Origin: Halopiger aswanensis
Lineage (GTDB): Archaea; Halobacteriota; Halobacteria; Halobacteriales; Natrialbaceae
Length of the DNA: 64,000 bases
Direction of reading: 5' to 3'
NCBI RefSeq assembly: GCF_003610195.1
Contig: NZ_RAPO01000004.1
Span: forward strand, 372,001-436,000
Shown: piece after piece, positions 3,475 through 61,763 of the stretch
Position numbering within the stretch: position 1 is the first letter of the stretch
Layout of the letters: each line of letters starts with the position of its first letter
Notes under the pieces: model-generated
What the model was told of the DNA's origin: nothing
What the model saw: only the letters and a program-made list of their open reading frames with translations
Databases searched by the model: none
Program-made: the position numbers and the translations under genes

Positions 3475-3788
3475 CAGACCACCTCCGCATCGGCTTCGAC
3501 GATGTCGCCGCGTCCGCGGGTACTCTCGCAATTGTGAGTATGCACCCATTCACCCGCTTCGACGGGTTCGGTCAGCCGACCGATGCTCTCGCCGTACTTC
3601 ACGACGGTATCTCCGGGTTCGCCCGCGACCAAGGCGATCTTATGCCCGAACGGGACGTCTTCGACGAGTCCGACCGTTCCGCCGTCGTAGGGGATCTCGG
3701 TTCCGGCCTCCAGATCGTCGATAGCCGTAACGACGGTATCGTCGGCGGTCATGTGCAGGGCGAGGTCCCCGAGTACTTCCCCTTTCAT
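3474..3788 (-). CDS. UxaA/GarD-family SAF-domain small subunit
   Basis: A 104-residue stand-alone SAF domain equivalent to the N-terminal domain of bacterial UxaA/GarD. Seen: MTADDTVVTAIDDL, PYDGGTVGLVEDVPFGHKIAL and the closing WVHTHNCES. The His-Asn/His-x-Asn ending is the family signature that contributes to the active site. In bacteria this domain is usually fused to the large domain; archaea and SuyAB-type sulfolyases keep it separate. Here it sits between two different large subunits, with 4-nt ATGA overlaps on both sides (3474-3476 and 3785-3788), so all three should be co-translated and form one hetero-oligomeric dehydratase. Confidence 0.8.
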   Translation of the reverse strand: MKGEVLGDLALHMTADDTVVTAIDDLEAGTEIPYDGGTVGLVEDVPFGHKIALVAGEPGDTVVKYGESIGRLTEPVEAGEWVHTHNCESTRGRGDIVEADAEVV

Positions 3789-26548: not shown

Positions 26549-26617
26549 ATGACTCAGGTTACGACTCGCACCCGGCCGCGTGACTCGAGCGCGGCCGAGA
26601 CGGAGGTGGACAGATGA
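26549..26617 (+). CDS. 22-codon leader ORF overlapping the second DppC gene
   Basis: An ATG at 26549, preceded at 8 nt by an AGGA Shine-Dalgarno-like string, opens a 22-residue frame whose TGA overlaps the ATG of the permease gene (ATGA at 26614-26617). It sits in an otherwise unusually long 160-nt gap between two permease genes. It may couple translation of the DppC gene to the upstream message. No similarity was recognised. Confidence 0.3.
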   Translation: MTQVTTRTRPRDSSAAETEVDR

Positions 26618-27735
26618 CGAACGAGAGCGACGAGCCGACGGCCCCAGGCGACGGTGCCGACCCGTTCGCCGACTGGGAGGATCCGGACCGGAACGCGGAC
26701 GCACGGACGGACGGCGGCAACGTGAGTTCCCCGTTCGAAGTCGTCTCGGAGTACGAGGAGTCCCGTGGCGACCGGCTCCGGAAACTGTACGATACCTACG
26801 TCTACGCGCCGATCGCCATCATCTGGCGCGACTGGCGGGCGCGGATCGGCTTCTCCATCGTGCTGTTTTACCTCCTGATGGGGATCGTCGGCCCGTACCT
26901 GATCGATCCGACGCAGGTGGCGGAGGGGCCGGCGCTGGTCGAACCGTTCCAGAACTGGGAGTACCCCCTCGGGACGGACAACATGGGTCGCGACCTGCTG
27001 TCCCAGACGGTTCACTCGACCTCGACGATCCTCAAGATGATCGCGTCGGGTGCGCTGGTTACCGTCGCCGTCGGCACGCTCATCGGCGGAGTCGCCGGGT
27101 ACAAGGGCGGCACGACCGACACTGTCTTGAGTTCGATCACCGACGTGTTCATCAACCTGCCCGGCTTCCCGCTGGTGATGATCCTGGCTGCGCTGCTGCC
27201 CGTCGGCGAGAACCCCTACATGGTCGGCGTCCTGCTGAGCGTCGGCGCGTGGGGCGGCCTCGCGCGGGCGATCCGATCGCAGGTGCTGACGATCCGCCAC
27301 GAGTCCTACGTCGAGGCGGCCCGCGGCATGGGCATTCCGACCCACCGCATCGTCTTCAAGGAGATCATCCCGCAGCTGATGCCGTACGTGGTGATCAACC
27401 TCACCAACGCTGCCCGGCGCGTCATCTTCGAGGCCGTTGCGCTGTACTACCTCGCAATCCTGCCGTTCTCGTCCTCGAGTCTGAACTGGGGGGTCATGCT
27501 GAACCAGGCCTACCAGGAGGGCGCCCACTACACGGCGGGCGCGCTCCACTGGTTCCTCGTTCCGATGGCGACGATCATCGGCATCTCGATCGGCCTCATC
27601 TTGCTCGGTCAGTCGCTCGACCGCGTCTTCAACCCGCGCGTCCGTGCCCGCCACGAGAAAACGACCGGCGAGGGCGGTGAGCCCGACGCCGACGAACCGA
27701 ACGAACAGAACACGAACGTCGTTGGTGGAATCTAA
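26614..27735 (+). CDS. ABC transporter permease, DppC type (second system)
   Basis: A 373-residue DppC-like permease with a long acidic N-terminal tail (about 85 residues). The first span is IGFSIVLFYLLMGIVGPYL, followed by the YPLGTDNMGRDLLSQ signature, four to five further spans and the EAA loop SYVEAARGMGIPTHRIVFKE. It ends with an acidic GEPDADEPNEQN tail. It lies 6 nt before the fused ATPase gene. Confidence 0.9.
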   Translation: MTNESDEPTAPGDGADPFADWEDPDRNADARTDGGNVSSPFEVVSEYEESRGDRLRKLYDTYVYAPIAIIWRDWRARIGFSIVLFYLLMGIVGPYLIDPTQVAEGPALVEPFQNWEYPLGTDNMGRDLLSQTVHSTSTILKMIASGALVTVAVGTLIGGVAGYKGGTTDTVLSSITDVFINLPGFPLVMILAALLPVGENPYMVGVLLSVGAWGGLARAIRSQVLTIRHESYVEAARGMGIPTHRIVFKEIIPQLMPYVVINLTNAARRVIFEAVALYYLAILPFSSSSLNWGVMLNQAYQEGAHYTAGALHWFLVPMATIIGISIGLILLGQSLDRVFNPRVRARHEKTTGEGGEPDADEPNEQNTNVVGGI

Positions 27736-27741
27736 CGAGCC

Positions 27742-29940
27742 ATGACCGTTTCACAAACCTCACAACCCGACCTCGACCGCAGTATCGAGACGACAGACCC
27801 GATTCTCCAAGTGCGGAACGCGTCCGTCACGTTCGACATGAACCGCGGCCAGTCGCGGGTCCTCGACGACGTCGACATCGACATCGAACGCAACGAGGTC
27901 CTCGGCATCGTCGGCGAGAGCGGTAGCGGCAAGTCGATGCTCGCGTCGGCGCTGCTCGACGCCGTCGTCGATCCGGGGCTGCTCAGCGGCGAGATCACGT
28001 ACCGTCCACCCGACGGCGACCCGATCGACGTCCTCGACCTCGACAAAGACGAACTCAAGGAGTTCCGCTGGGAGGAAGTGTCGATGGTCTTCCAGGGGGC
28101 GATGAGCTCGTTCAACCCCGTTCGGAAGATCCGCACCCACTTCGTCGAGACGCTGAGCGCGCACGATTACAACGTCGAGGAGGGGATGCGACGCACCCGC
28201 GGCATCCTCGAGGATCTCTACCTCGATCCCGATCGCGTCCTCGAGAGCTATCCGCACGAACTCTCCGGCGGGATGAAACAGCGCGCGCTGATCGCCCTCT
28301 CGCTCGTCCTCGAGCCGGAAGTGCTGGTGATGGACGAGCCGACCGCGGCGCTGGACCTGCTGATGCAGCGCTCTATCATCTCGCTGCTCGAGGAGATCAA
28401 GACGCAGTACGATCTGACGATCGTGTTCATTACGCACGACCTGCCGCTGGTCGCGGACATCGCCGACCGGGTCGGCGTCCTGTACGCCTTCGAATTCGTC
28501 GAACTCGGGCCGACGGACGAGATTCTCGAGGATCCGGCGCATCCGTACACGCGACTGCTCCTCAAGTCGACGCCGAACCTCGCCGCGCCGATCGAATCGA
28601 TGCGTCCGGTGGAGGGGAGCGCGCCGGATCCGGTGAGCGTTCCCACGGGCTGTTCGTTCCATCCCCGGTGTCCGATCGGCGACTCGGCGTGCGAGGCCGA
28701 CGCACCCGGGCCGTACGACGTCAACGACGACCATCACGTCCACTGTCACTACTGGGAGGAGGCCATCGAGACGATTTCGATGGAGACCGAGGTCCAGTCC
28801 GCGGACGACCGGATCGGGATGGCGGACTCGAGCGTCGCCGCGCGCTCGCGCTCGTCGCGAACCGGCGAGCCGGTCGTCTCGCTCGACGACGTCGAGGTCC
28901 ACTTCGAGACGGAAGGCGGCTTCCTCGACGTGTTCTCCGACCCCGATGTCGTCAAGGCCGTCGACGGCATTTCGTTCGACATCTACGAGAACGACGTGGT
29001 CGTCCTCGTCGGCGAATCCGGTTGCGGAAAGACGACGCTCGGGAAGACCGCCATCGGGCTCCAGGAGCCGACCGGCGGCAGCGTCCGCTACCGCGGTCAC
29101 GATATCTGGGACGTGAAGGCAAACGGTAGCGACGAGACCAGCTGGGCGGAGATCCGCCGGTCGCTACAGATCGTCCACCAGGATCCCGGCAGCGCGCTGA
29201 ACCCCAACCGTCGCGTCCGCCAGTCGCTCGAGGAACCGCTCAAGCGCTGGAACAAGGAACTCGACGGCAACGACCGAAAGCAGCGGATCCTGAGCCTGCT
29301 CGAGCACGTCGGGATGACGCCGCCGGAAGATTATATCGAACGCTACCCCCACCAACTGTCGGGTGGCGAGCAACAGCGCGTCGCCCTGATCCGCGCGATG
29401 TTGATGAATCCGGAGGTCATCCTCGCGGACGAACCGGTCTCGGCGCTGGACGTCTCCCTGCGCGTCGAGATGATGGACCTGATGATCAAGCTTCAGGACA
29501 CCTTCGACACCTCGTACCTGTTCGTCTCGCACGACCTCTCGAACGCCCGCTACATCACCGAGAAGACGGGCGGTCGGATCGGCGTCGTCTACCTGGGCGA
29601 ACTCGTCGAGATCGGGCCGCCGGAACAGATCATCCGCAACCCGCAACACCCCTACACGAAGGCGCTGCGGTGGGCGACGCCGGAACTCGATCCCGAGGAG
29701 GAGCGAGCCGAGGAAGCGCCGATCCGCGACATCGACATCCCCGACCCGACGAATCCGCCGAGCGGCTGTCGCTACCACACCCGTTGTCCGGAGGCTCGGG
29801 AAGTCTGCCGGACCGAACGACCGGACGCGTACAGCGGGTCCGACGACGAGCTCCACGAGGTGACGTGTTTCCGCGCGGTCGAGGACCACGAGTACTGGGA
29901 CAGCGAGCCGATCACTGACGACGGAGACGCGGCCGAGTAA
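27742..29940 (+). CDS. Fused DppD-DppF type ABC ATPase (second system)
   Basis: A 732-residue protein holding two complete ATPases in one chain. N-half: Walker [13 protein letters not shown], signature LSGGMKQR, Walker [20 protein letters not shown], and [10 protein letters not shown]-type Cys motif (here [10 protein letters not shown], about 295). C-half (from about 375): Walker [13 protein letters not shown], signature LSGGEQQR, Walker [19 protein letters not shown], and [10 protein letters not shown]. The linker (about residues 345-375) is Ser/Arg/Ala rich. In the first transporter operon the same two proteins are separate genes, so this is a gene fusion. Fusion fixes the D:F stoichiometry at 1:1. 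Confidence 0.92.
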
Positions 29941-30107
29941 CGAAGCCGGCCGTCGTTCGGTTTCCCGGCGCCCGTTCTCCGGTGACGGGCGGTAGCGAGG
30001 ACATCGAACCGTCTCGAGGGACTGCTCGAGTACCGCGAAGCGACGCGTCTCGCCGGTTCTGTGTGGCATTGTCGGCCTTCGATTCTCTCGCATTGTGACT
30101 GATGATT

Positions 30108-30118
30108 AATTATATATA
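30108..30118 (+). promoter_or_regulatory. TATA box of the second SBP gene
   Basis: TAATTATATAT is centred about 28 nt before the ATG at 30141. The SBP gene therefore has its own promoter at the end of the permease/ATPase operon, and the ATG at 30141 rather than one at 30102 is the probable start. Confidence 0.6.
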
Positions 30119-30140
30119 CCTCCATTATCAATTGGGTGGT

Positions 30141-31994
30141 ATGCCAGATCCTACCAATCGGTATAGCAGCGCACGGAGTCGGCGAGACGTCCTCAAGGCT
30201 GGTGCGGTCGGTGGCACTGCACTAATCGCGGGCTGTAGTGGCGGTGGCAACGGAAACACCACTGAAAACGGCGGTACCGGCGGCGGTGGTGGCGGCGACG
30301 ATTCGCGACTCACCTACTTCGATCCGGTCGGCGATCCGCCGGGGCAGCGCCACTTCAACCCGTGGAACCCCTCACAGACCGGCTGCTGGCATCCGGGCGC
30401 GAACGTCTTCGACCGGCTCGCGATCCACTCGCCGGCGACCAACGAGGCGTTCCCCATCATCGCCGATAGCTGGGAGATGACCGACGACACGACGCTCGAG
30501 ACGGAACTGAGCGACGAGTGGACGTGGCACAACGGCGATCCGGTCGTCGCACAGGACTGGGCGATGCAGTGGGAGATGGAGATCGCCATCTCGACGGCCG
30601 GCGACGGCGACAACCCGACGCCGATGGACGAAATCGAGGTCGTCGACGATCACTTCCTGCGGATCCACCTGAACACGGAATTGTCGGAAATCTTCGCCGT
30701 TCAGAACACGATCGGCTGGTACCACGGCGACATCGGTCGCGGCATTTACACTAAGCACGACGACGATCAGTGGAGCCAGTGGCACGAGCAACTGCTGAAC
30801 TCGGAGGGCGACGAACTGGACACGGTCATTGAGGAGATCACGACCTCGAGCTATCCCAGCGTCGAGGACGCGATCGGGCAGGGGCCGTTCCAGGTCTCGG
30901 AGGTCGGGGACGATATCATTCTCATGGAGAAGTACGAGGATCACCCCCGGGCTGACGACATCAACTTCGACGAGTTCGAGCTGTGGGTGTCCGGCGACGT
31001 CGGCGAGCGCGTCCAACCGTACGCCAACGGTATCGTCGACGCCGTTCCGGGTGGGTATCCGGTTCCGGAGAATCAACGGAACCAGCTTCCCGACACCCAC
31101 TCCCTGTACCGGGAGGCGCGGACCGCAAACTCCCTGATTTGCTTCAATTGTGGCCACGAGGTGGAGGGCTACGATTCCGCGGTCTCGAACGCGAACGTTC
31201 GAAAGGCGATCGCCCACATTTACGACAAGCAACAGACCGAAGGCCTCCTACAGGGCGTCAAGAAACTGTTCGACGGCCCGCCGTGTCGGATTCCGGGGCC
31301 GACGATCGAGGAGGGAAGCCACCCCTCCACGGAGTGGATCCAGGACTTCCCCCGGTACGGCCAGAACGACACCGAGCGCGCGGCGGAACTGCTCCGCCAG
31401 GAAGGGTACGAGCAGGACAGCGGCGAGTGGCTGACCCCCGACGGCGAACGCTTCGAGATCAACATCCTGAATCCGGCCGAGCAGGAGCACCTGCAGGTCC
31501 TCATCCAGAACCTGCAGGACTTCGGGATCGCGGTCGAAGCCGAGAACGTCGACGACGCGACGATGAACGAGCGGCGACAGAACGGCGAGTACGACATCAT
31601 CCCCGACGGCTCCTCGGCCAACGGCGTCTTCGCCATGTGGTCGCCCGGCCTGATCGTCGACTGGATCTCCCAGCTTACCAACTACGAACCCGAGGCCGAG
31701 ATCCCGATGCCCGTCGGCGATCCCGAGGGTTCCAGCGGGACGAAGACGATCAACATCGCCGACCACGTCCAGCAGTGGATGACCACCGACGACGAAGAGT
31801 ACCACAAGGAGCTGACGTGGTGGTGGAACCAGACGCTGCCCGAGTACGAGGCGCTGTACGAACCCGACGCCGCCGCGCTCAACACGGCGCACTTCGAGTT
31901 CGACGGCGTGCCGGACACGATCGTCGACGGCGTCGACGACGCGCTGTACATCGCGCCCAAGCTCGAGGAGGGAACGCTGCGATACAAGGAGTAA
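30141..31994 (+). CDS. ABC transporter substrate-binding lipoprotein (SBP family 5), Tat-exported, second system
   Basis: A 617-residue solute-binding lipoprotein. A Tat motif SRRDVLK (about residue 13) is followed by a hydrophobic stretch and lipobox IAGC (about 33), then a Gly/Asn/Thr spacer typical of haloarchaeal lipoproteins. The mature protein has the SBP_bac_5 layout with WTWHNGDPVVAQDW (about 130) and ANVRKAIAHIYDKQQTEGLL (about 350). It differs strongly from the first SBP, suggesting a different oligosaccharide size or composition. An independent promoter would let the binding protein be made in excess over the membrane parts. Confidence 0.9.
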   Translation: MPDPTNRYSSARSRRDVLKAGAVGGTALIAGCSGGGNGNTTENGGTGGGGGGDDSRLTYFDPVGDPPGQRHFNPWNPSQTGCWHPGANVFDRLAIHSPATNEAFPIIADSWEMTDDTTLETELSDEWTWHNGDPVVAQDWAMQWEMEIAISTAGDGDNPTPMDEIEVVDDHFLRIHLNTELSEIFAVQNTIGWYHGDIGRGIYTKHDDDQWSQWHEQLLNSEGDELDTVIEEITTSSYPSVEDAIGQGPFQVSEVGDDIILMEKYEDHPRADDINFDEFELWVSGDVGERVQPYANGIVDAVPGGYPVPENQRNQLPDTHSLYREARTANSLICFNCGHEVEGYDSAVSNANVRKAIAHIYDKQQTEGLLQGVKKLFDGPPCRIPGPTIEEGSHPSTEWIQDFPRYGQNDTERAAELLRQEGYEQDSGEWLTPDGERFEINILNPAEQEHLQVLIQNLQDFGIAVEAENVDDATMNERRQNGEYDIIPDGSSANGVFAMWSPGLIVDWISQLTNYEPEAEIPMPVGDPEGSSGTKTINIADHVQQWMTTDDEEYHKELTWWWNQTLPEYEALYEPDAAALNTAHFEFDGVPDTIVDGVDDALYIAPKLEEGTLRYKE

Positions 31995-33599: not shown

Positions 33600-34439
33600 T
33601 CACTCCGGCGGCGCGTCCCACTCCTCGCCGTCGTCCTGCGGGTCGTAGCCGATCCGTGCTCGGGCGTGCTCGAGGTCGAACCACCGCCGCCGGTTATCGC
33701 TGACCCCGTGGAAGATGTCGAACGATACGTCGTCGTCCTGCAGACAGCAGTCGATCTGGTGGGCGAAGTCCCGACGCGACTGCCACATCGCCTTCATCCG
33801 TGCGACCCAGCGCTCGTACTCGTCGCTGCCGCGCTCCCAGTTGCCCTCGTCGACGCCCTGCTCGGCGTCCCCGTAGGGGTGGTCGTACTCGCTCGAGTTG
33901 ACCGTACAGATCCGGAGCGCATAGAACTGCGTCGGGTACTCGTAGTCCTCGACGTAGTACCGGCCGAGGTCCTCGCCGAAGCTCTTCGAGGCGCCGTAGT
34001 AGGAGTCGGGCCGCACCGGATCGGTGTGATCGAGCACGAGGTCGAAGTCGGGCTCGTAGATCTCGGGGGCGAACTCCTCCTCGTACATCCCCATCACGTG
34101 GTTGGTCGAGCCGAAAATGATCGACTCGACTTCCGCCTCGCGTGCGGCCTCGAGGACGTTGTACATGCCGATAACGTTGGGCTCGAAGACGTCGTGCCAG
34201 TCGCCGTCCGTGCTGGGGAACGCGGCGAGGTGGACGATCGCGTCCTGTCCCTCGCAGGCGTCCCGAAGCGTCTCGTAGTCGCTGATATCGCCGACGACGG
34301 TGTCGTAGCCGCCGTAGGGATGATCGTCGGGACGGTCCGAACGGTTGTAGTAGGTGAAGTTGTACTCCTCGCGGTCGTGCAAGTGGTCGATGATCGCCGT
34401 GCCGCAGCGACCGTACGCGCCGGTCACAAGGACGTCCAT
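33600..34439 (-). CDS. udh: Uronate dehydrogenase-like NAD-dependent epimerase/dehydratase-fold enzyme
   Basis: A 279-residue extended-SDR protein resembling bacterial uronate dehydrogenase (Udh). Seen: nucleotide motif VTGAYGRCG at the N-terminus, IVHLAAFPS, NVIGMYNVLEAARE, the FGSTNHVMGMYEEE segment equivalent to the SSNH motif of Udh, PDSYYGASKSFGEDLGRYY (catalytic Tyr-x3-Lys at about 145-150) and ALRICTVNSS. Known Udh enzymes oxidise D-galacturonate or D-glucuronate with NAD to the aldarolactone. The C-terminal part (WFDLEHARARIGYDP) also matches the family ending. It lies 70 nt downstream of the Gci-like gene on the same strand but with its own TATA box (TATTAAAT, 34463-34470). The call rests on motif memory, not alignment. 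Confidence 0.75.
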   Translation of the reverse strand: MDVLVTGAYGRCGTAIIDHLHDREEYNFTYYNRSDRPDDHPYGGYDTVVGDISDYETLRDACEGQDAIVHLAAFPSTDGDWHDVFEPNVIGMYNVLEAAREAEVESIIFGSTNHVMGMYEEEFAPEIYEPDFDLVLDHTDPVRPDSYYGASKSFGEDLGRYYVEDYEYPTQFYALRICTVNSSEYDHPYGDAEQGVDEGNWERGSDEYERWVARMKAMWQSRRDFAHQIDCCLQDDDVSFDIFHGVSDNRRRWFDLEHARARIGYDPQDDGEEWDAPPE

Positions 34440-34462
34440 ACCAGTTATCCGACGGGTATGCC

Positions 34463-34470
34463 TATTAAAT
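34463..34470 (-). promoter_or_regulatory. TATA box of the udh-like gene
   Basis: TATTAAAT is centred 27 nt before the ATG at 34439, in the 70-nt gap after the Gci-like gene. It suggests the two genes can also be transcribed separately. Confidence 0.5.
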
Positions 34471-34509
34471 TGATGGGTTCAACGGAGTCGACAGCACCTC
34501 CTGAGTCCG

Positions 34510-35646
34510 CTATTCGTCGGCGCGGTACGTCGCCAGCGCGTCCTCGTCGATCGAGATTCCCAGTCCCGGCTCTTGGGGAACCTCGAGCGTGCCGCCGGCC
34601 GGGTCGAACGGTGCCTCGAGCAACTCGCTGCGCAGCGGGTTGGTGCTGCGGTCGAACTCGATCAGCATCGGCTCCGGCACGTTCCGGGTGTGGGGGTAGT
34701 CCGAGACGCTGGCGGCGAACTGGATCGCGGCGGCCATGCCGACGGCGCTGTTCCAGATGTGGGGTCTGACGGCGACGTTCTCCGTCGAGGCCATGTCGGC
34801 GATCAACCGGGCCTCGGAGAGCCCGCCGCAGCGCCCGAGGTTCGGCTGGACGATGTCGACCTGCCGGTCGTCGATCAGGCGCTTGAAATCGAACCGGCCG
34901 TAGTGGGCTTCCCCGGCCGCCAGCGGCACGTCGACCTTCGCCTTCACGTCGCGGTAGCCCGACGGGTTCTCCGGCGGCACCGGCTCCTCGATCCAGGCGA
35001 CGTCGTACTCGGCTATTCGCTTCGCCGTCTTGATCGCCTGATGGGGCCGGTAGTTCCCGTTCATGTCCACCATGAGCGTGCCGTCATCGCCGAGAATTTC
35101 GCGGGCGACACGGACCCGTTCGACGTCAGTCTCGGGATCCGCGCCGATCTTGATCTTGGCCGCGGTAAAGCCCTCTTCGACCGCCTCGCGGATCGGCTCC
35201 TCGAGCGGTCGGTCTTCGGCCGTGTAGTACATCGTCGAGGCGTAGGGGGTCAGCGTGTCCCGCTCGCGGCCGCCGAGCAGCCGGTGGATCGGCCGGCCGA
35301 CCGACTTTCCGATGATGTCCCAGCAGGCGACGTCGATCGCGCTCAGCGCGCTCTGGACGAAGACGTCGCCGCCGAAGTGGTACGGATCAGTGTAGGAGCC
35401 GTCGGCCAGCGACTCGACGTCGAACGGATCCATGCCGACTACGTCGTCCCGGAACAGTTCGTCGATCGTGGCGGCGGCGATCTGTCCGGGTGCGAACGCC
35501 TCGCCCCAGCCGACCAGTCCGTCGTCGGTCTCGAGGCGGACGAGCGTAGTTGCACGGGTGCGACCGAATCCGCGGGCGTCGCCGAGACCGCGGCCTTCGG
35601 GTAACTCGTGTTCGAGCGGAATCGTCTCGAGTGACGTGATTTCCAT
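34510..35646 (-). CDS. gci: Galactarolactone cycloisomerase-like enolase-superfamily enzyme
   Basis: A 378-residue enolase-superfamily protein, the same length as Agrobacterium Gci and similar in order and spacing of motifs. These are SALSAIDVACWDIIGKSVG, TPYAST, the base motif AKIKIG (about 165), ligands in LMVDMNGNY (D about 191), WIEEPV (E about 218) and AGEAHYG (E about 243), RPHIWNSAVGMAAAIQF (about 295) and the C-terminal MLIEFDRSTNPLR. Gci converts galactaro-1,4-lactone to 5-keto-4-deoxyglucarate lactone-derived acid, the step after Udh. The Udh-like gene follows directly on the same strand, which supports the call. An alternative is another aldonate dehydratase of the MR group. A TATA-like GCTATTTC lies about 28 nt upstream. 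Confidence 0.72.
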   Translation of the reverse strand: MEITSLETIPLEHELPEGRGLGDARGFGRTRATTLVRLETDDGLVGWGEAFAPGQIAAATIDELFRDDVVGMDPFDVESLADGSYTDPYHFGGDVFVQSALSAIDVACWDIIGKSVGRPIHRLLGGRERDTLTPYASTMYYTAEDRPLEEPIREAVEEGFTAAKIKIGADPETDVERVRVAREILGDDGTLMVDMNGNYRPHQAIKTAKRIAEYDVAWIEEPVPPENPSGYRDVKAKVDVPLAAGEAHYGRFDFKRLIDDRQVDIVQPNLGRCGGLSEARLIADMASTENVAVRPHIWNSAVGMAAAIQFAASVSDYPHTRNVPEPMLIEFDRSTNPLRSELLEAPFDPAGGTLEVPQEPGLGISIDEDALATYRADE

Positions 35647-36022
35647 GTGCTACCGAGTGGCGCCCGCCCCGAAATAGCTTGCGCTGAGGCGGCGCTCTCG
35701 TCGTCGATGTGTTCTGGACGGTCGCCTCCGAGACTGCGGGCTGAGAGTGGCCTGCTCCGGTTTGTCGAGGAAGCATTTCAGTTAGCGAAACGTAGTGTCG
35801 CTCGATACTCCTCGACGTTCTCGAAACGACGTTACACGCTTCATCAGCACACCGTTCTCCTGTGTCTCAACGTTCGGAAGAAGACGCCCTCTCGAACACT
35901 CCTCGACGAACTCCTTGAAATGCCCCACATCCGGAACGCAATCGATCCATTCAGTCGATTTCTGGTTAGCCGCTCACTATCTCTCGAACTCTCCCGTTAG
36001 CGAAACCGCCGTTTCTGTACCA
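35647..36022. other. 376-nt gap containing a transposase relic
   Basis: The gap lies between the divergently placed 5-prime end of the Gci-like gene and the 3-prime end of the MBL-like gene. Apart from the IS5-type relic (35743-35946) nothing gene-like is seen. No terminal inverted repeats or target duplication could be made out. Confidence 0.5.
35743..35946 (+). pseudogene. IS5-type haloarchaeal transposase relic, N-terminal part
   Basis: The frame encodes LLRFVEEAFQLAKRSVARYS, then YTLHQHTVLLCLNVRKK, then RTLLDELLEMPHIRNAID. These match from memory the N-terminus of a common haloarchaeal IS5-group transposase. The similarity stops at about 35946, where the next conserved block (a PSPSTLCKAF-like segment) is missing, and no start codon or downstream catalytic DDE region remains. 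It is a dead fragment marking a past insertion beside the udh/gci pair. Confidence 0.65.
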
Positions 36023-36733
36023 TCATCTTCTCAGTGTGGCGTATGCGATTCTAATACCAGTTCCGAAATTTTCGAAAAGCGCTCGTGGCATTCGACGCCG
36101 GCCGTTAACGATCGCATCTTGCAGTGCTGGTGTAGGGTCCTCAAATATGCCGCGACCATGGCCAACGCAAATACGCGCGGGATTCAACGAAAGAAGGGAG
36201 CGCGGAGGGTTCAGTCTTGCCAACAAGGGAGCCCCGAGACGCTCCTCACCGACGAGATAGTACGGAGCAGTTCCCAGCGTATCTGGAATGTAGAGCGTGC
36301 GACCGGAGTCGTGATAGAGGATCGCCTCCCCAAATCCTGGAACCAACTGGCGGTGAAAGATTCGTACGTCGGCATCGGGAAGATCATCTGCATATCGCTC
36401 GACCGTGCCGGTCACTTGCGCCCCAACGTTGGGCATTCCGGCTGGGATGTAAATCGGGACGTCGTACCGCTCAGCGAAGTGGTTGGCATCACGAGTATGC
36501 CAACTCGAACAGATTGCAACGCCGACGACCTCGCCGAGTTCTGCAATACGGTCGTGGATGCCCGGTGAGTCGAGTGGGTCAACGATCCATACACCATTGT
36601 CGAAAGCAAACGCGTGACTCGCGCGCATTGCGCTCTCGTCCGGATGTGCGAACCAGCCAAAGCCACTATCCCACGAATCGATGAGCTCGAAGCCCTTCGA
36701 TTCGCGGCGATCTATCACGCGATTGCCTCCCAT
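36023..36733 (-). CDS. Metallo-beta-lactamase-fold-like protein with degenerate metal motif
   Basis: A 236-residue protein. The layout resembles MBL-fold hydrolases: a DNGVWIVDPLDSPGIHDRI strand-loop, VGVAICSSWHTRDANHFAERY where the HxHxDH motif is expected, LYHDSGRTLYIPDTLG, and a closing ICVGHGRGIFEDP. Only His-x-Arg-Asp and isolated His/Asp residues are present at the metal site, so a di-zinc centre like that of active enzymes is doubtful. The function is unknown. It is a single gene between the IS5-type relic and the acetylesterase gene, with base use slightly less GC-rich than its neighbours. Confidence 0.65.
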   Translation of the reverse strand: MGGNRVIDRRESKGFELIDSWDSGFGWFAHPDESAMRASHAFAFDNGVWIVDPLDSPGIHDRIAELGEVVGVAICSSWHTRDANHFAERYDVPIYIPAGMPNVGAQVTGTVERYADDLPDADVRIFHRQLVPGFGEAILYHDSGRTLYIPDTLGTAPYYLVGEERLGAPLLARLNPPRSLLSLNPARICVGHGRGIFEDPTPALQDAIVNGRRRMPRALFENFGTGIRIAYATLRR

Positions 36734-36927
36734 AACGCCTCTTCTCGTATAATTCTCTTAAGAGTTTGCGCTTACGGTGGTTCGAGGAAGCGGATTTCGA
36801 CAGAGCCGTTTGTTCTTCACTCATCCGGGTCGGGGTGTACCCAGCGTCCGCCGTGGGCTCGACGACGCGAACTCGCGGCACCGATGCTTCTATAGGGCTG
36901 TCCGTTCTCGGTACCGCCCGTACTCAA

Positions 36928-37620
36928 ATGCCGTCAGCACCGATTACAGTCCACCTAATCGGAGACTCGACTGCCGCCGAGAAAGAGCCAGACGCCCGCC
37001 CCGAAACGGGCTGGGGAACCCCGTTCGCCGAACGATTCGAGGACTCGGTGACGGTCAAGAATCACGCCCGTAACGGGCGCAGCACCCGCACCTTCCTCGA
37101 GGAGGACCGCTGGCAGCCCGTGGTGCGCGACTTGACCGAGACGCACTACGTGTTCATTCAGTTCGGTCACAACGACGAGGTCCCATCCAAGGAACAGTAC
37201 ACACCCCCGGACGCGTTCGTCGCCAACCTCGAGAAGTTCGTCGACGAAACGCGTGATTGCGGGGCGAACCCGGTGTTACTCACGCCCATCGCGCGTCGCC
37301 ACTTCGACGAGGCGGGCGAGCTGGAAGATACCCATCGGGAGTATTCGGAACTGACGCGCACCGTCGCCCAGGAGCACAACGTCCCGCTCATCGACGCGGA
37401 CGAACGGAGTCGGTCGCTCCTGCGCGAACTGGGCCCCGACGAATCGAAATCGCTCTTCCTTCACCTGTCGCCGGACGAGCACCCGAACTATCCCGACGGC
37501 GTGACCGACGATACGCACTTCAGCGAGGAGGGCGCTCGACGGATGGCCGACCTGGTACTCGAGGGGGTCGATGACCTGGAGCTCGAGTTAGCCGCTCACG
37601 TCGTCCGGTACGATCGGTGA
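36928..37620 (+). CDS. Rhamnogalacturonan acetylesterase-like GDSL/SGNH hydrolase (CE12 type)
   Basis: A 230-residue SGNH hydrolase. Block I LIGDSTAAE (nucleophile Ser about 14), WGTPF, NHARNGRSTRTFLEE (block II Gly/Asn), VFIQFGHND (block III Asn about 81), LLTPIARR, and block V DDTHFSEEGA (Asp and His about 194-197). The DSTAA, GHND and DTHF versions are the CE12 rhamnogalacturonan acetylesterase pattern. It would remove acetyl groups from galacturonate in rhamnogalacturonan fragments. No signal peptide is present, so it acts inside the cell. The ATG at 36928 is preferred because block I begins at once. It is followed 52 nt later by the KdgD-like gene on the same strand. Confidence 0.85.
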   Translation: MPSAPITVHLIGDSTAAEKEPDARPETGWGTPFAERFEDSVTVKNHARNGRSTRTFLEEDRWQPVVRDLTETHYVFIQFGHNDEVPSKEQYTPPDAFVANLEKFVDETRDCGANPVLLTPIARRHFDEAGELEDTHREYSELTRTVAQEHNVPLIDADERSRSLLRELGPDESKSLFLHLSPDEHPNYPDGVTDDTHFSEEGARRMADLVLEGVDDLELELAAHVVRYDR

Positions 37621-37672
37621 CCGCCATCGGCAGTACGTTTAAGCGTGTGGTCGTCCGTAACACGGATGAGAA

Positions 37673-38599
37673 ATGCCAGCGACTAGCTTACACGATCGGT
37701 TTCGAGACGTCGCCTTCACGACGGCCGTCCCGTTCACCGAGGACCGGACGGCCGTTCGCGACGACGCGCTCGCGGACAACGTCTCGCGGCTGTACGAGGC
37801 GGGCGCACGGCTGTTCATCCCGTGCGGGAATACCGGCGAGTACTACGCACTGACCGACGACGAGCGGGTCGACGTCGTCGAGACCCACGTCGCGGCGACC
37901 GGCGATGAGGCGACGATCGTCGGCGGCGCTGCGGGGAACGTTCCCGAAGTGACCGCCCTCGCGAACGCCTACGAAGATGCCGGCGCCGACGCGGTCATGG
38001 TGATGCACCCCGATCACACGTACGCGCACGAGTCGGGGCTCCTCGAGTACTACGACCGGATCTGTGATGTAACCGATCTCGGGGTCGTTATCTACAAGCG
38101 TGGCCCCGAACTCACCCGAGACGTGCTCGTCGAACTGAGCGAGCGCGAGGAGGTCGTCGCGATTAAGTTCGCCGTCGACGATCTCAAGGAGTTCTCCCAG
38201 ACCGTCGACGACGCCGACGGCGACGTGACGTGGCTCAACGGCATCGCCGAACGGTACGCTCTCTCGTTCGCGATCGAGGGCGCCGAGGGGTATACGACCG
38301 GCGTCGGCAACTTCGTTCCCGAGGTGACGCTCGAACTCTACGACGCGATCGAAGCCGAGGAGTGGGACCGCGCCCGCGACCTCCAACAGCTGTTGCGCCC
38401 GCTCGAGGACATCCGGGAGGAATCCGGGACCGAAAACGACCTCGCGGCGGCGAACAACGTCCCCGTCGTCAAGTACGGGATGGACCTGGCGGGCTACGAG
38501 GGCGGCCCCGTTCGCCGCCCGCTCGTCGAACTCGCCGCCGACGACAAGGCTCGCGTCGAGGACCAGTACGCGACAATCGACGCGACTGAGCTGCACTAA
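37673..38599 (+). CDS. DHDPS-family lyase, KdgD-like 5-keto-4-deoxyglucarate dehydratase
   Basis: A 308-residue (beta/alpha)8 class I aldolase-type protein. Seen: PCGNTGEYYALTDDERV (the GxTGE motif, about 46-62), VVIYKRG (Tyr about 140) and the Schiff-base Lys in AIKFAVDD (about 165), then GYTTGVGNFVPE. Length and motifs suit KdgD, which decarboxylates and dehydrates 5-keto-4-deoxyglucarate to 2-oxoglutarate semialdehyde, the step after Gci or GarD. A 2-keto-3-deoxy-acid aldolase is the alternative. It lies just downstream of the acetylesterase gene. No 2-oxoglutarate semialdehyde dehydrogenase was seen in the window. Confidence 0.75.
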   Translation: MPATSLHDRFRDVAFTTAVPFTEDRTAVRDDALADNVSRLYEAGARLFIPCGNTGEYYALTDDERVDVVETHVAATGDEATIVGGAAGNVPEVTALANAYEDAGADAVMVMHPDHTYAHESGLLEYYDRICDVTDLGVVIYKRGPELTRDVLVELSEREEVVAIKFAVDDLKEFSQTVDDADGDVTWLNGIAERYALSFAIEGAEGYTTGVGNFVPEVTLELYDAIEAEEWDRARDLQQLLRPLEDIREESGTENDLAAANNVPVVKYGMDLAGYEGGPVRRPLVELAADDKARVEDQYATIDATELH

Positions 38600-44939: not shown

Positions 44940-45028
44940 CTGCCAATCCCAGCGACCGCTCCTCGAGACGGCTCGAGTCGACGGCCGACCAGCCATATTT
45001 AGTGGCTCCGTCGTTGTACTCGGACGCA

Positions 45029-46782: not shown

Positions 46783-46790
46783 GTTTATGT
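46783..46790 (+). promoter_or_regulatory. TATA box of the GH28 gene
   Basis: GTTTATGT is centred about 28 nt before the ATG at 46814. Because it overlaps the alternative in-frame ATG at 46787, it favours the shorter protein. Confidence 0.5.
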
Positions 46791-46813
46791 CCGTACTCCG
46801 GGATATCCGGACG

Positions 46814-48364
46814 ATGGCAGTGCCTGACACGGATCGGTTCGATATCCGCGAGTACGGCGCGATCAGCGACTCGGACGATCCCAACACCGACGCGATTCAG
46901 ACGGCGCTCGACGAGTGCGCCGAGACTGGCGGGACCGTGTACGTTCCGGCCGGCACGTTCCGCACAGGTCCGCTTCGGATCGGCGACCGGACGACCCTCC
47001 ATTTGGATCCGGGAGCGACGCTGACGTTCGTCGGCGACTACGACGCGTTCCCCACGATCGAAAGCCGCTGGGAAGGGTGGAACCAGCACGGCTTCCACCC
47101 CTGCTTGTGGGTTACTGACGCCGAAAATGTCGAGGTCAGCGGTCGCGGAACGATCGACGGCAACGGCCAGTACTGGTGGCAGTTCTACGGTGCTGACGAC
47201 GACGAGCTCCCCGAGGGGCTGCGCGAGCGTCTCGCGGAGTTCAACGAGAAAAACGACAAGGCGGACGACGTCAGCTCCTTCACGCTCCGTCCGCCGCTGT
47301 TCCAGATTTCCGAGTCCGAGAACGTCACCGTCTCCGGCGTCACCCTCCAAAACTCGCCGTTCTGGAACACCCACGTCGTCTACTCCGAGAACGTCACGAT
47401 CACCGACGTCAACGTCCTCAATCCCGCGGAGGGCGCGCCCAACGGGGACGGGATCGACATCGACTCCTCGCGGTACGTCCGGATCAGCGACGCGTACATC
47501 AACGCCGGCGACGACGCGATCTGCATCAAGTCGGGCAAGAACGCCGAGGGCCGCGAGCTCGGCGAGCCGGCCTCGCAGATCACCGTCACGAACTGCACCG
47601 TCGAGGCCGGCCACGGCGGCGTCGTCATCGGCAGCGAGATGTCCGGCGACGTTCGCGACGTCGCGGTCACCAACTGCACCTTTACCGATACCGACCGCGG
47701 CGTCCGGATCAAGACCCAGCGCGACCGCGGCGGCGTCGTCGAGGACCTCCGGTTCGACAACATCGTCATGCGGCGGATCGCCTCCCCGTTCACCATCAAC
47801 GGCTACTACTTCACGCCGTTAGACAGCGAGCCCGAACCGGTCGACGAGGGGACGCCGATGGTCCGCAACGTGACATTCAGCAACATCACCGCCCGCAACG
47901 TCGAGACGGCCGGCTTCTTCGCCGGCCTCCCCGAGCAGTACTTCGAGGGCATCGAGTTCGATAACGTGCGGATCGACGCAACGCGGCCGCTCGACGCGAC
48001 CGATCTCGACCCCGCGATGGCGTCGGGCTACGAGCAGACCCACGGGCTGTTCTGCAAGTCCATCGCCGACATCTCGTTCAACGACGTTCGCATCCGGACC
48101 GCCGACGGCCCGGCGATGCGGTTCGTCGACACCGAGTCGGTCACCGTCGACGGCCTCCAAGTTCCGGACGACCAGGCGGCGCCGATCATCGATCTCGAGA
48201 ACGTCGATCGAACCCGCATTCGCGGCTGCGCGCCCGACGGCGAGTCGCCGTTCGTGCGGGCGACCCGCGAGACCGAGACGATCGAACTCGCGGGTAACTT
48301 CGGCGACCTGGCCGACGACGTCGAAATCGAAGCCGAGAGCGACGCGACGCTCGAGTCATTCTGA
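46814..48364 (+). CDS. GH28 polygalacturonase (intracellular exo-type)
   Basis: A 516-residue right-handed beta-helix enzyme with all four GH28 signatures: PNGDGIDIDSS (NxDG, about 209), AGDDAICIKSG (GDD, about 232), GHGGVVIGSE (GHG, about 266) and RGVRIKTQ (RIK, about 297). The three catalytic Asp lie in the first two. No signal peptide is present, so it should remove galacturonate from imported oligogalacturonides in the cytoplasm. A tail of about 40 acidic residues follows the helix. Monocistronic by its own TATA box, it lies downstream of the ThDP enzyme gene and converges on the second Gfo/Idh/MocA gene. Confidence 0.92.
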   Translation: MAVPDTDRFDIREYGAISDSDDPNTDAIQTALDECAETGGTVYVPAGTFRTGPLRIGDRTTLHLDPGATLTFVGDYDAFPTIESRWEGWNQHGFHPCLWVTDAENVEVSGRGTIDGNGQYWWQFYGADDDELPEGLRERLAEFNEKNDKADDVSSFTLRPPLFQISESENVTVSGVTLQNSPFWNTHVVYSENVTITDVNVLNPAEGAPNGDGIDIDSSRYVRISDAYINAGDDAICIKSGKNAEGRELGEPASQITVTNCTVEAGHGGVVIGSEMSGDVRDVAVTNCTFTDTDRGVRIKTQRDRGGVVEDLRFDNIVMRRIASPFTINGYYFTPLDSEPEPVDEGTPMVRNVTFSNITARNVETAGFFAGLPEQYFEGIEFDNVRIDATRPLDATDLDPAMASGYEQTHGLFCKSIADISFNDVRIRTADGPAMRFVDTESVTVDGLQVPDDQAAPIIDLENVDRTRIRGCAPDGESPFVRATRETETIELAGNFGDLADDVEIEAESDATLESF

Positions 48365-50744: not shown

Positions 50745-51995
50745 TCAGTCGTTATCGTAGTGGAATTCGGTCCAGGGACCGTCCGTGAGCGGGTACTGTT
50801 CGATCACGTCTTCGTTCAGTTCGACGCCGAGACCGGGCTCGTCGGACACCGACAGCACGCCGTCGGTGACGTCGGGCTGTCCCTCGATCAGGTCGAACGC
50901 GAGATCGAACGGATACATTCCGGGATCCACCTCGGTGTCGAACAGCGGGTCGTCCTCGAAGACGGGGTACTCCACGAGCGTGGCTTCGGGCGCGGCCGCG
51001 ACGAGGTGTGCGTTCGCGGCGAGGCCGATCCACGTCCCGAAGTTGTGCGGGACGAACTCGAGGTCGTCCCGGCCCGCGCAGAGCGCGACGGCCTCCCGGC
51101 AGCCGGTAAAGCCCTCGTGGTGGCGGACGTCGCCCTGAAGGAAGTCAACGGCGCCGGTTTCGCCGAGCGCGACCAGTCCCGCGGCCGACTCCTCGCTCTC
51201 GCCGCCCGCGAGCGGCGCATCTGTTGCAGCGAGGTCGACGTACCCCTCGTGGTCGTCCGGCTCGACGGGTTCCTCGATCCAGTAGGCGTCGTGGTCGGCA
51301 GCGTGGACGACCAGATCGCGGACCGTCTCGCGGTCGTAGCCCTCGCGGAGCTTCCACCAGGTGTGAACGTCGAGCATGAGTTCGATGTCGTCCACGCTCG
51401 CGGCGAGTTGCGCGACGGTTTCGCGGTCGCCCTCGGGACCGATCCCGGGGCGGTACTTGTAGCCGAAAAAGCCCAGCTCCTCGAGGACCTGTGCCTGCTC
51501 GACGTAGCCGTCCGGCTCCATGTACATCCCCGCGCTGGCGTACAGATCGAGTTCGGTCGTCGGCGCCGCGTCGGCGTCGAACTCGTCCGCGAGCAGTTCG
51601 TAGACCGGCGCGCCGCGCCGCTTCCCTTCGATGTCGTACAGCGCGACGTCGATCGCCGAGATCGCCTCGATCAGATCGCCGTCGGGAACGTTGCTCCCGC
51701 GGAGCAAGTCGTGGGCGTCGGGGATCGCGTCGATGGTTTCGCCCTCGAGGGCGTCGGCGACGGGCCCCTCGACGACGTCGGCGAACGTTCCCTGCGAGTC
51801 GCCCTCGAAGTACTCGGTCATGGCCGAACTGCTCGCGCCGGCCGTCGCGATTCCCCGGAGGCCGTCTCTCGTTTCGACGACGACTAACACGACGTCCCGC
51901 TTCCGGAGTCGTCGGACGCCGCCGTGGAACGGCCGCTCCTGTACCGGATCGATCGGCGACGAGAGGGCGTAGCCTCTCACTGCTGTAATCTCCAT
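50745..51995 (-). CDS. Enolase-superfamily sugar-acid dehydratase/cycloisomerase 4
   Basis: A 416-residue enolase-superfamily protein, the most divergent of the four in the window. Seen: LIEAISAIDVALYDIEGKRRG, base motif FFGYKYRPG (about 181), LMLDVHTWWKLREGYD (Asp about 206), YWIEEPVEPDD (Glu), LAGGESEES (Glu, last ligand) and FVPHNFGTWIGLAANAHLV (His about 317). The HTWWKLREG loop after the first ligand is unusual and may bind a distinctive substrate. A TATA box (52018-52027) precedes it. It is followed by the Fno gene and preceded by the IclR gene on the same strand, so an aldonate of the IclR regulon is likely. Confidence 0.8.
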   Translation of the reverse strand: MEITAVRGYALSSPIDPVQERPFHGGVRRLRKRDVVLVVVETRDGLRGIATAGASSSAMTEYFEGDSQGTFADVVEGPVADALEGETIDAIPDAHDLLRGSNVPDGDLIEAISAIDVALYDIEGKRRGAPVYELLADEFDADAAPTTELDLYASAGMYMEPDGYVEQAQVLEELGFFGYKYRPGIGPEGDRETVAQLAASVDDIELMLDVHTWWKLREGYDRETVRDLVVHAADHDAYWIEEPVEPDDHEGYVDLAATDAPLAGGESEESAAGLVALGETGAVDFLQGDVRHHEGFTGCREAVALCAGRDDLEFVPHNFGTWIGLAANAHLVAAAPEATLVEYPVFEDDPLFDTEVDPGMYPFDLAFDLIEGQPDVTDGVLSVSDEPGLGVELNEDVIEQYPLTDGPWTEFHYDND

Positions 51996-52081: not shown

Positions 52082-52849
52082 CTACGAGAATTTGGTGTTG
52101 AGTTCGATGACGTTCGCAGCACGCTGGACGTAGTCCGAGAGTTCCCCATGGAGTCGCTCGTCGGTAAACCGGCTCGAGGGGCCGGAGACACTGATGGCAC
52201 CCAGGACCTTCTCGCCTTTCCTGACGGGCGCGGCGACGCAGCGCAGGCCGTTGATGTTCTCCTCGTCGTCGATGCCGTAGCCGCGGTCGCGAATCGCCTC
52301 GAGGTCCTCGAAGAACTCCTCCGGCGTCGTGATCGTGTTGCGCGTCTGCGCGACGAACTCGGTTTCTGCGACGATTTCTTCGACGCGTTCCCGGGGGAGG
52401 TACGCACAGATCGTCTTCCCGAGCGAGGTCGAGTAGATCGGTTGCTGGGTGCCGACGCTCGAGGCGGTTTCGACCGCGCTGTCGCCAGCCGCCTTACAGA
52501 GGTACGACACTCGGTTGTGTTCCTCGATACCGAACTGCGCGATCTCGCCGGTGTCCGCCGCGAGCGTCTCGACTTCGCTTCGAATGACCTCGTAGTTCCC
52601 GACCTGCTCGCGAACGTGCTGTGCCATCCCGAGGATCTGGAGACTGAGGCGATACTGGCCGTCTTCTCGGACGACGATCTCGAGTTCCTCGAGCGTTCCT
52701 AGGTGGCTGTGGACCGTACTCTTGGAGTGTCCGAGCTCGTTTGCGATCTCTGTGACGCCGGCGCCGTTCTTCCGCTGTAGCGTATCGATGATGCTGAACG
52801 CTATCTGCACCGAGCGGATCGTCCGACCTGTTTCCCGTTGTGATTCCAT
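52082..52849 (-). CDS. IclR-family transcriptional regulator
   Basis: A 255-residue IclR protein. Residues about 12-70 are the winged helix (VQIAFSIIDTLQRKNGAGVT, IANELGHSKSTVHSHLGTLE) and about 85-250 the GAF-like effector domain (HNRVSYLCKAAGDSAVET, YSTSLGKTICAYLP, INGLRCVAAPV, LGAISVSGPSSRF). IclR proteins control sugar and sugar-acid catabolic genes in haloarchaea and usually bind short palindromes. A perfect GTTCCC-N5-GGGAAC palindrome lies just upstream of its TATA box, making self-regulation likely. The same palindrome occurs at other gaps of this island. Confidence 0.9.
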   Translation of the reverse strand: MESQRETGRTIRSVQIAFSIIDTLQRKNGAGVTEIANELGHSKSTVHSHLGTLEELEIVVREDGQYRLSLQILGMAQHVREQVGNYEVIRSEVETLAADTGEIAQFGIEEHNRVSYLCKAAGDSAVETASSVGTQQPIYSTSLGKTICAYLPRERVEEIVAETEFVAQTRNTITTPEEFFEDLEAIRDRGYGIDDEENINGLRCVAAPVRKGEKVLGAISVSGPSSRFTDERLHGELSDYVQRAANVIELNTKFS

Positions 52850-60135: not shown

Positions 60136-61575
60136 TCAGTCGTCCGTGAGGACATCGGCACCCTCGAGGTCGTAGTCTCGGAAGTAGTCGCGTTCGATCT
60201 CGACCAGTTCGGCGAACAGCTCCCTGGCCTCGTCGCGCTGGATGGTCACGAGCGGCTCGTTGAGGAACGCCTGGAATGCCAGGTCCAGATCGCCGGCGTA
60301 GCCGGCTTCCACGAGCGTCTCCTGATTATCGACGGATTGCCTGACCATGCTGCGGACCTCGCGGGGGAAGTCGCCGGCGGTGATCGGTTTGACGCCGGCG
60401 CCGGTGATCATCGCGTTCGTCTCGACGACTGGGCCGGTCGGCAGATCGGAGATCTGGCCTTCGTTCGGGTAGTTGACGTGGGTCTTGATTGGTTCGATGC
60501 CGAGCAATGCGCGCATGATGTCGACGACCTCTTCGCCTGACTCCTGGAACTCGAAGGTGCCGTCCTCGTTGAGGTAGCGACTCATCTTCGCCGGACCCTC
60601 GCCGTCGGACCGCCGCGCGGAGCTGGGCGTCAGGCGGATTCCCCACCGTTGAATCTCCTCGGGTTCGTCGATGTCGAGGTACCACGGGACGAACTCCGCG
60701 AGGTGCCGGTCGCCCGCGGCACCGAACAGGCCGAACTTGTCGTACAGATCGAACGCGATCTGGTGATGGTTCGTCCAGTATCCTTCGTCGTCCAGGTCGC
60801 CGGGCTCGAAGCTCGGCAGGGGCTTTCGCTCCTCGAGTTCCTCGTCGAGGTACGGAAAGATGTCGCGGTCGTACCAGTAGGCCTCGTCGATCCAGGTGAA
60901 GTGATTGATCCCCTTGACGTTGACGTCGATCTCCTCGGCGTCGACGTCCTCGGCCTCGTCGACGTACTTCTCGACAATTCCGGCGAGGAACCGCTGAGTG
61001 CCGAAAACTTCGTGACAGAGACCGATGGCGTTGATATCGGGGTACTCCTCGTAGAGCGCTCGGGTGCAGACGGTCATCGGGTTCGTGTAGTTGACCACCC
61101 AGGCGTCGGGACACTGCTCGCGGACCGTCGCCGCGATCTCGCGGTACTGCGGGATCGCCCGCAGCGCCCGAACGGCCCCGCCCGGTCCGCAGGTGTCCGC
61201 GACCGTCTGGTAGATGCCGTACTCCTGGGGGACGTCGATGTCGTGGACGAACGTCTCCTCGGGCGGATCCTGAATCGAACAGATCACAAAATCTGCTCCC
61301 TTGAGCGCAGGTTCTATTTCCTGGTACGCTTCGAACGTCCAGTCGCCGGGTGCGTCGTCCCGCTCCACGAGGCGGTTGCCGAGTTCGGCATTTTTCGCGG
61401 CCGGTTCGTAGTTGACGTCGTAGAGCGCGACCGATCCCGAGACGTCCTCGCACTGCAGGAGGTCGTTGATAAGGGTGTGCGCCCATCCTTCGCTCCCGCC
61501 GCCGATGTAACCGATCTTCACGTTCGCGTTCGTCGCCGTTGACGACGGATCCGGTATCTCCTCGAGCGTATGCAT
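60136..61575 (-). CDS. lplD: GH4 alpha-galacturonidase (LplD type)
   Basis: A 479-residue NAD- and metal-dependent GH4 enzyme. NAD motif GYIGGGSEGWAHTL (about 22), VADTCGPGGAVRALRAIPQY, NYTNPMTVCTRALYEEYP, the metal Cys in IGLCHEVFGTQ (about 187) and metal His in GINHFTWIDEAYW (about 225), AAGDRHLAEFVPWYL, VETNAMITG and the end LAFQAFLNEPLV. Motif order and wording match the LplD alpha-galacturonidase of Bacillus closely, which hydrolyses alpha-galacturonides by a redox mechanism. It should cut galacturonate from oligogalacturonides inside the cell. The ATG at 61575 is supported by a TATA-like ACTATTTT about 27 nt upstream. A C-terminal relic of a second copy lies at 19601-19702. Confidence 0.88.
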   Translation of the reverse strand: MHTLEEIPDPSSTATNANVKIGYIGGGSEGWAHTLINDLLQCEDVSGSVALYDVNYEPAAKNAELGNRLVERDDAPGDWTFEAYQEIEPALKGADFVICSIQDPPEETFVHDIDVPQEYGIYQTVADTCGPGGAVRALRAIPQYREIAATVREQCPDAWVVNYTNPMTVCTRALYEEYPDINAIGLCHEVFGTQRFLAGIVEKYVDEAEDVDAEEIDVNVKGINHFTWIDEAYWYDRDIFPYLDEELEERKPLPSFEPGDLDDEGYWTNHHQIAFDLYDKFGLFGAAGDRHLAEFVPWYLDIDEPEEIQRWGIRLTPSSARRSDGEGPAKMSRYLNEDGTFEFQESGEEVVDIMRALLGIEPIKTHVNYPNEGQISDLPTGPVVETNAMITGAGVKPITAGDFPREVRSMVRQSVDNQETLVEAGYAGDLDLAFQAFLNEPLVTIQRDEARELFAELVEIERDYFRDYDLEGADVLTDD

Positions 61576-61763
61576 CGTCAGGACACATGGGAAACAGTCG
61601 CAAAATAGTTGTGATCGCAGCAGCACCGGACCGGGTCCCCCGCCGTCGGCTGGTCACCCGTGCGCCCCGTCCGCCATCGGCGGGCGTCGGGTGTGACCGA
61701 AGCCGGTCCGTTCGAGCGACCGACGGAACTAAACGCGTGGCTCTTTGTCTTTGTGGCACGCCT

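Follow-up and report, generated by a model that had tools for sequence, protein, structure and literature searches.

The closest described systems to the locus considered here are the oxidative route by which Agrobacterium tumefaciens degrades galacturonate (Udh, Gli, Gci, KdgD and KGSADH), with its counterpart in Shinella (L079), and the oxidative pentose pathway of the haloarchaea Haloferax and Haloarcula. For haloarchaea, only isomerase-type glucuronate genes are described in the open literature searched (PMC3102087), and no uronate-oxidizing pathway in archaea turned up in that open-access literature. Here we analyzed a window of 64,000 nt from the 4.87 Mb genome of Halopiger aswanensis (contig NZ_RAPO01000004.1, positions 372,001 to 436,000), in which three genes encode a Udh-like extended short-chain dehydrogenase/reductase (SDR; P0001), a Gci-like enolase-superfamily protein (P0002) and a member of the dihydrodipicolinate synthase (DHDPS) family (P0003); P0001 to P0005 denote proteins of window genes. 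We consider it likely that these three genes specify the central steps of an oxidative route for hexuronates in archaea. Its function is most likely the oxidative degradation of galacturonate to 2-oxoglutarate, and the same pathway probably also takes glucuronate. Overall, the system is most likely an archaeal version of a pathway known so far from bacteria, built from archaeal enzyme variants.

The SDR gene (33600..34439, minus strand, 279 aa), proposed to encode an NAD-dependent uronate dehydrogenase, lies 70 bp downstream of the Gci-like gene (34510..35646, minus strand, 378 aa), a putative aldarolactone cycloisomerase. The DHDPS gene (37673..38599, plus strand, 308 aa), a candidate 5-keto-4-deoxyglucarate dehydratase/decarboxylase, is located on the opposite strand, 3.2 kb from the SDR gene and 2.0 kb from the Gci-like gene. 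A second DHDPS paralogue (P0005; 43541..44485, plus strand, 314 aa) belongs to the type that most relatives carry in place of P0003. A preliminary description of this DNA had placed a Udh-like gene directly after a Gci-like gene, with a KdgD-like gene about 3 kb away; the three open reading frames are indeed intact, with the starts, ends and arrangement it gave. The encoded proteins are acidic and the genes have a GC3 (G+C at third codon positions) of 0.86–0.91, which argues that these are real haloarchaeal genes.

In the proposed route, GH28 and GH4 glycoside hydrolases (GH) of the surrounding island would release galacturonate from pectin, P0001 would oxidize it to galactarolactone, and P0002 would open the lactone by β-elimination to give 3-deoxy-2-keto-hexarate. 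P0003, or its paralogue P0005, would then dehydrate and decarboxylate this intermediate to 2-oxoglutarate semialdehyde. The last step, to 2-oxoglutarate, would fall to a 2,5-dioxovalerate dehydrogenase of haloarchaeal type, whose gene lies in another part of the genome. We infer every substrate and turnover of this scheme from computed homologies, residue states, conserved clustering and the presence of a genome-encoded last enzyme.

Uronate dehydrogenases are the closest solved structures to P0001 by sequence (ranks 1–4, 27–29% identity) and occupy ranks 1–5 of a fold search with its predicted model (mean pLDDT 81). The Udh active-site Asn, His, Tyr and Lys are kept as N113, H114, Y148 and K152. 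Across an alignment of ~50 haloarchaeal relatives and three bacterial Udh sequences, S111-T-N113-H114, Y148 and K152 are invariant or conservatively varied, and the position matching Udh Ser165 is mostly Ser or Thr in the haloarchaeal clade. Furthermore, R214 of P0001 is invariant in the aligned clade and missing from the genome's own Azf; it aligns with Udh Arg174, a reported substrate contact (3RFV). Azf, the haloarchaeal NAD-dependent glucose-6-phosphate dehydrogenase, is the closest characterized archaeal relative of P0001 (~41–46% identity to the Azf of this genome), but it possesses neither Arg214 nor an insertion, YDHPYGDAE, found in P0001. Azf shares the Ser-Asn-His motif, which was consequently dropped as proof of uronate specificity. 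Identity of P0001 with Azf was itself excluded, as P0001 scores 192 bits against an Azf model cut-off of 400 and a separate true Azf at C3:77 kb scores 479 bits. An uncharacterized SDR group 2, adjacent to Azf (group 1), carries an insertion in the β6-α10 loop (PMC8506132), and P0001, judged by its own insertion, appears to fit this group.

A related arrangement was observed in Haladaptatus, Halogranum, Halegenticoccus and Halocatena, where an SDR paralogue with 65–70% identity accompanies an enolase-superfamily gene, a fumarylacetoacetate hydrolase (FAH) family gene, a second SDR gene and nucleoside hydrolase genes (L032, L034, L035, L037, L038, L039, L041 and L069, positions ~7–16 kb). These clusters possibly encode an oxidative route from nucleosides to ribose.

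For P0002, sequence and fold both identify A. tumefaciens Gci (4ggb/4hpn) as the best relative in the PDB (E 2.8e-72, TM-score 0.92, 38% identity), followed by the anhydrogalactonate cycloisomerase DauB (5olc, 36% identity). The metal ligands of Gci are residues 194, 220 and 246, with Lys166 as predicted base and His296 as predicted acid (PMC5698469), and K166, D194, E220, E246, H296 and W298 are invariant across 14 aligned haloarchaeal Gci-like sequences. DauB has the Lys, the His, the metal ligands and Trp298 in common with Gci and P0002. In contrast to P0002, DauB retains the Asp both at position 87 and in the QPD motif, and it acts on a carrageenan-derived anhydro-sugar acid. The motif EFDRxxNPxR was dropped as a Gci-only signature because DauB has a near copy, ELDRTENALR.

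The third gene had been described as KdgD-like, a name that we do not retain, as P0003 belongs to a different DHDPS subfamily. P0003 falls below both KdgD models (132 versus 374 bits for TIGR03249, 167 versus 278 for NF002958), whereas Shinella KdgD passes both. P0003 and P0005 share 40% identity and represent two DHDPS subfamilies; the best NCBIfam families of both are the two KdgD models, above DapA (by 24–60 bits for P0003) and far below cut-off. The Schiff-base Lys and catalytic Tyr are kept in both proteins, and relative to KdgD, P0003 keeps Thr54, with the late-barrel Ser replaced by Thr and Gly53 by Asn. KdgD has its catalytic Tyr where KdaD, the L-KDA dehydratase of the arabinonate route, has Glu (PMC13398020). 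Assignment of P0003 or P0005 as KdaD (EC 4.2.1.43) was excluded on the basis of this Tyr, present in both. P0003-type and P0005-type proteins replace one another beside 2,5-dioxovalerate dehydrogenase in different genomes, which suggests that they catalyze the same reaction, and the P0005 type is paired with the SDR and this dehydrogenase in Haloferax and others.

The final enzyme, a 2-oxoglutarate semialdehyde dehydrogenase, had been left by the preliminary description to be sought in the rest of the genome, where two copies were found. Both match the 2,5-dioxovalerate dehydrogenase model NF052305 (869 and 886 bits, cut-off 750) and both lie in FAH-type, pentose-like clusters at C2:930–990 kb. 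All 21 of the dehydrogenases tested, including these two, match NF052305 with E < 1e-230. The intermediate is thus most likely 2-oxoglutarate semialdehyde, which disfavors rhamnose, fucose and galactose routes.

We compared forty named loci and roughly fifteen annotated plasmid regions to determine how far the gene neighborhood is conserved. The SDR, a Gci-like gene and an aldehyde dehydrogenase, mostly also with a DHDPS gene, occur together in Natrialba, Haloterrigena, Halostagnicola, Natrinema, Natronococcus, Haloprofundus, Halogranum and others, and in Haloferax the SDR is found with DHDPS and dehydrogenase genes while the Gci-like gene is elsewhere in the genome. GH4 homologues directly follow the SDR in Haladaptatus, Halogeometricum and Halobonum (L011, L015, L020). 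No Gli homologue was found in any compared locus. Plasmid pHTUR01 of Haloterrigena turkmenica carries a paralogous SDR with UxaC, mannonate dehydratase, DHDPS and aldehyde dehydrogenase genes. A RhaM-type mutarotase, which may act on uronates or on rhamnose, is encoded near the SDR in seven Haloferax species (L016, L017, L018, L021, L022, L024 and L044, near 0.5 kb) and beside the Gci-like gene of Natrinema zhouii (L085, 10044–10349).

Co-occurrence was evaluated in 312 haloarchaeal genomes. A Gci-like gene is present in 33 and a close SDR in 70, comprising all 33 Gci-like carriers and 37 of the 279 other genomes. The two genes lie at most 1 kb apart in 19 of the 33 carriers, which together with the complete overlap indicates that the grouping of the trio is not due to chance. 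GH28 was detected in 22/33 carriers versus 1/279 other genomes (p 1e-24) and GH78 in 10/33 versus 9/279 (p 2e-6), counts that ignore kinship, which inflates the p-values; the contrast between GH28 and GH78 remains informative despite this relatedness. The GH28 association and the LplD-type GH4 family, adjacent to the SDR in three loci, point to galacturonate as the substrate. At the level of the pathway, the oxidative-uronate proposal of the preliminary description is therefore sustained by conserved neighborhoods, semialdehyde dehydrogenases, an α-galacturonidase next to the SDR and GH28 co-occurrence, but its gene names hold only in part: Udh-like and Gci-like are borne out by homologues and by retention of most catalytic residues, and qualified by clade-specific changes.

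The remainder of the window resembles a pectin island. The proposed source of free galacturonate is an LplD-type GH4 α-galacturonidase (60136..61626, minus strand), whose match to PDB 3fef (E 4.6e-113) far exceeds the next (2.6e-31). A GH28 polygalacturonase-type hydrolase (46787..48364, plus strand; PF00295, E 2.4e-48) and a GDSL esterase of the rhamnogalacturonan/pectin acetylesterase type (36766..37620, plus strand; PF13472, with a partial match to the pectin acetylesterase PaeY) are also encoded; the gene at the esterase position in Halopiger xanaduensis is annotated as a rhamnogalacturonan acetylesterase. GH106 is likewise present, as are Gfo/Idh genes at 18520 and 48437. In most relatives the Gci-like gene comes with the enolase-superfamily protein MR507 (50745..51995, minus strand), which stands beside it and the SDR in ~20 haloarchaeal loci and whose active-site motifs (GYKYRP, QGDVRHHEG, VPHNFGT) differ from those of P0002. 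An IclR-family regulator (52082..52849, minus strand; PF01614, E 1.8e-39) recurs in many homologous clusters. An oligopeptide/sugar-type ABC transporter (26614..31994, plus strand), comprising a permease, fused ATPases and a binding protein (SBP_bac_5 at 30102–31994), could import oligogalacturonides, and similar transporter genes lie by the cluster in H. xanaduensis, Haloprofundus and Natrinema.

Further genes of the window relate to sugar acid metabolism. P0004 (40059–41228) passes the curated cut-off for galactonate dehydratase (486 versus 311 bits) and is conserved in several pectin islands, which suggests that side-chain galactose is degraded via the De Ley–Doudoroff route. Split galactarate/altronate dehydratase-type genes (2323–4987) comprise a GarD/UxaA-like gene, a small SAF-like open reading frame and a gene for a large subunit; their substrate could be altronate or galactarate. 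In Halopiger, the second DHDPS gene has a conserved neighbor, which encodes an acetolactate-synthase-like thiamine-diphosphate enzyme (45002–46753; below all cut-offs shown). The protein encoded at 36023–36733, between the Gci-like gene and the esterase, has no Pfam or NCBIfam match and is absent from this place in H. xanaduensis.

Plasmid pHG3 of Haloferax gibbonsii encodes an SMP-30 lactonase in a cluster where no Gci-like gene is adjacent, and lactonase-family propellers occur in seven loci, raising an oxidative uronate route via a lactonase and an aldarate dehydratase. Here the lactone would be hydrolyzed to galactarate, whose dehydration would fall to P0002, to MR507 or to the GarD-like pair of split genes, and P0002 would be no cycloisomerase. 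Bacterial lactonase variants, UxuL and UxuF, are known (PMC6353982), both GarD/UxaA-like genes and MR507 are at hand in the window, and D269N and D87H separate P0002 from Gci. However, the propellers are confined to some loci, with none in the window, and the search for SMP-30 homologues gave none in the window either and, among clusters in which a Gci-like gene is adjacent, a single match at a distant position (L029). As the structures nearest to P0002 are moreover cycloisomerases, we regard this route as unlikely. The preliminary description had also reported no isomerase-pathway enzymes, which is correct for UxaB and UxaC within the window; UxaC is nonetheless encoded at C2:960 kb, and together with the UxaA/GarD-like genes of the window it indicates that parts of the isomerase route exist. 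An isomerase route (UxaC, a reductase and a UxaA-like enzyme) might then dominate, with the trio as an accessory, as might a fungal-like reductive route employing a Gfo/Idh or aldo-keto reductase, P0004 and P0005 as aldolase, for which the P0004 score and the two Gfo/Idh genes speak. Either arrangement is improbable: no UxaB/UxuB-type reductase of the mannitol-dehydrogenase family (PF08125) was found in the genome, and where a cluster has no P0003 type, the P0005 type accompanies 2,5-dioxovalerate dehydrogenase, which makes P0005 unlikely to be an aldolase.

Pentose routes likewise end in 2-oxoglutarate semialdehyde (PMC8551123). If the substrate were an aldopentose, such as L-arabinose from pectin side chains or ribose, the SDR would be an aldose dehydrogenase, P0002 a pentonate dehydratase and the DHDPS protein a 2-keto-3-deoxypentonate dehydratase. 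The L-arabinose dehydrogenase of Haloferax volcanii, a novel type, is an extended SDR, and the paralogues that sit with FAH and nucleoside hydrolase genes are compatible with such a role. We nevertheless give an aldopentose route little credence, since two separate clusters of FAH and 2,5-dioxovalerate dehydrogenase genes in this genome already fit the known pentose route, the DHDPS proteins have no KdaD glutamate, the Gci-like gene tracks GH28 and the GH4 α-galacturonidase, and the structures nearest to P0002 and P0001 are Gci and Udh. Rhamnogalacturonan being part of pectin, an L-rhamnose route was also weighed, composed of the SDR, a dehydratase, a DHDPS aldolase and a lactaldehyde dehydrogenase. 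The RhaM-type mutarotases, GH106 in the window and the weaker GH78 co-occurrence would all suit it. In contrast, the aldehyde dehydrogenases of the clusters fit the 2,5-dioxovalerate model rather than lactaldehyde models, and the association with GH28 is far stronger than that with GH78. Rhamnose breakdown in H. volcanii is reported to follow a diketo-hydrolase route (Reinhardt 2019, cited in PMC12186497), and we consider a rhamnose function very improbable.

Besides the kinship among the sampled genomes, several observations weigh against an oxidative hexuronate pathway. In the SDR, Udh Ser74/75, near the C2 hydroxyl, are not kept, the aligned stretch reading Y/F-P-Y/S with one residue inserted; the conserved insertion YDHPYGDAE is clade-specific; and close paralogues in the nucleoside-hydrolase cluster indicate that the family is not uronate-only. 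Every member of the haloarchaeal Gci-like clade carries D87H and D269N, the latter at the Asp of the QPD motif, which in the enolase superfamily pairs with the acid His. Asn269 would be compatible with a cycloisomerase, because the lactone leaves as a carboxylate and requires less acid help than a hydroxyl; this is not proof, and real Gci keeps the Asp. A tree of MR (mandelate racemase) proteins, with its deep branches open, keeps the haloarchaeal clade separate from Gci plus DauB and gives it no firm sister group. A further main doubt concerns the third step, for which family and genomic context suggest the putative activity: P0003 and P0005 are ~24% identical to the true KdgD of the Shinella udh-kdgD-gci cluster and about as close to DapA, and P0005 does not have two KdgD residues (Thr54 replaced by Ile, the late-barrel Ser by Ala). 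A broad cultivation survey saw no growth on pectin in any cultured haloarchaeon, strains that carry GH28 and pectate lyases among them, and cautions against inferring growth from such genes (PMC9726719).

If the oxidative hexuronate pathway operates as proposed, it would explain how haloarchaeal pectin islands feed central metabolism, extend archaeal oxidative sugar breakdown to 2-oxoglutarate from pentoses to uronates, and provide functions for an uncharacterized SDR group and two DHDPS subfamilies annotated by family only. The P0002 clade would also offer a natural Asp-to-Asn variant for mechanistic studies of the enolase superfamily. More tentatively, haloarchaea may have a pathway of their own that combines SDRs related to Azf, a cycloisomerase clade in which Asn and His stand in for two Asp residues of bacterial Gci, and two interchangeable non-KdgD DHDPS subfamilies that would make 2-oxoglutarate semialdehyde; its product would enter the semialdehyde dehydrogenase family that also serves the pentose route.

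Comparison with the A. tumefaciens and Shinella pathway reveals homologous SDR, Gci-like and DHDPS genes in one island, the same proposed intermediates, and a semialdehyde dehydrogenase encoded in the cluster or genome. In contrast, the haloarchaeal identities are only 28% (SDR), 38% (Gci) and ~24% (DHDPS), and the haloarchaeal loci have no Gli homologue, other DHDPS subfamilies and an altered Gci-like active site. The haloarchaeal pentose pathway shares the semialdehyde as its end and the dehydrogenase family NF052305, but it proceeds through a pentonolactonase, a pentonate dehydratase and an FAH-type dehydratase, for which the matching clusters in this genome are located away from the trio, at C2:930–990 kb.

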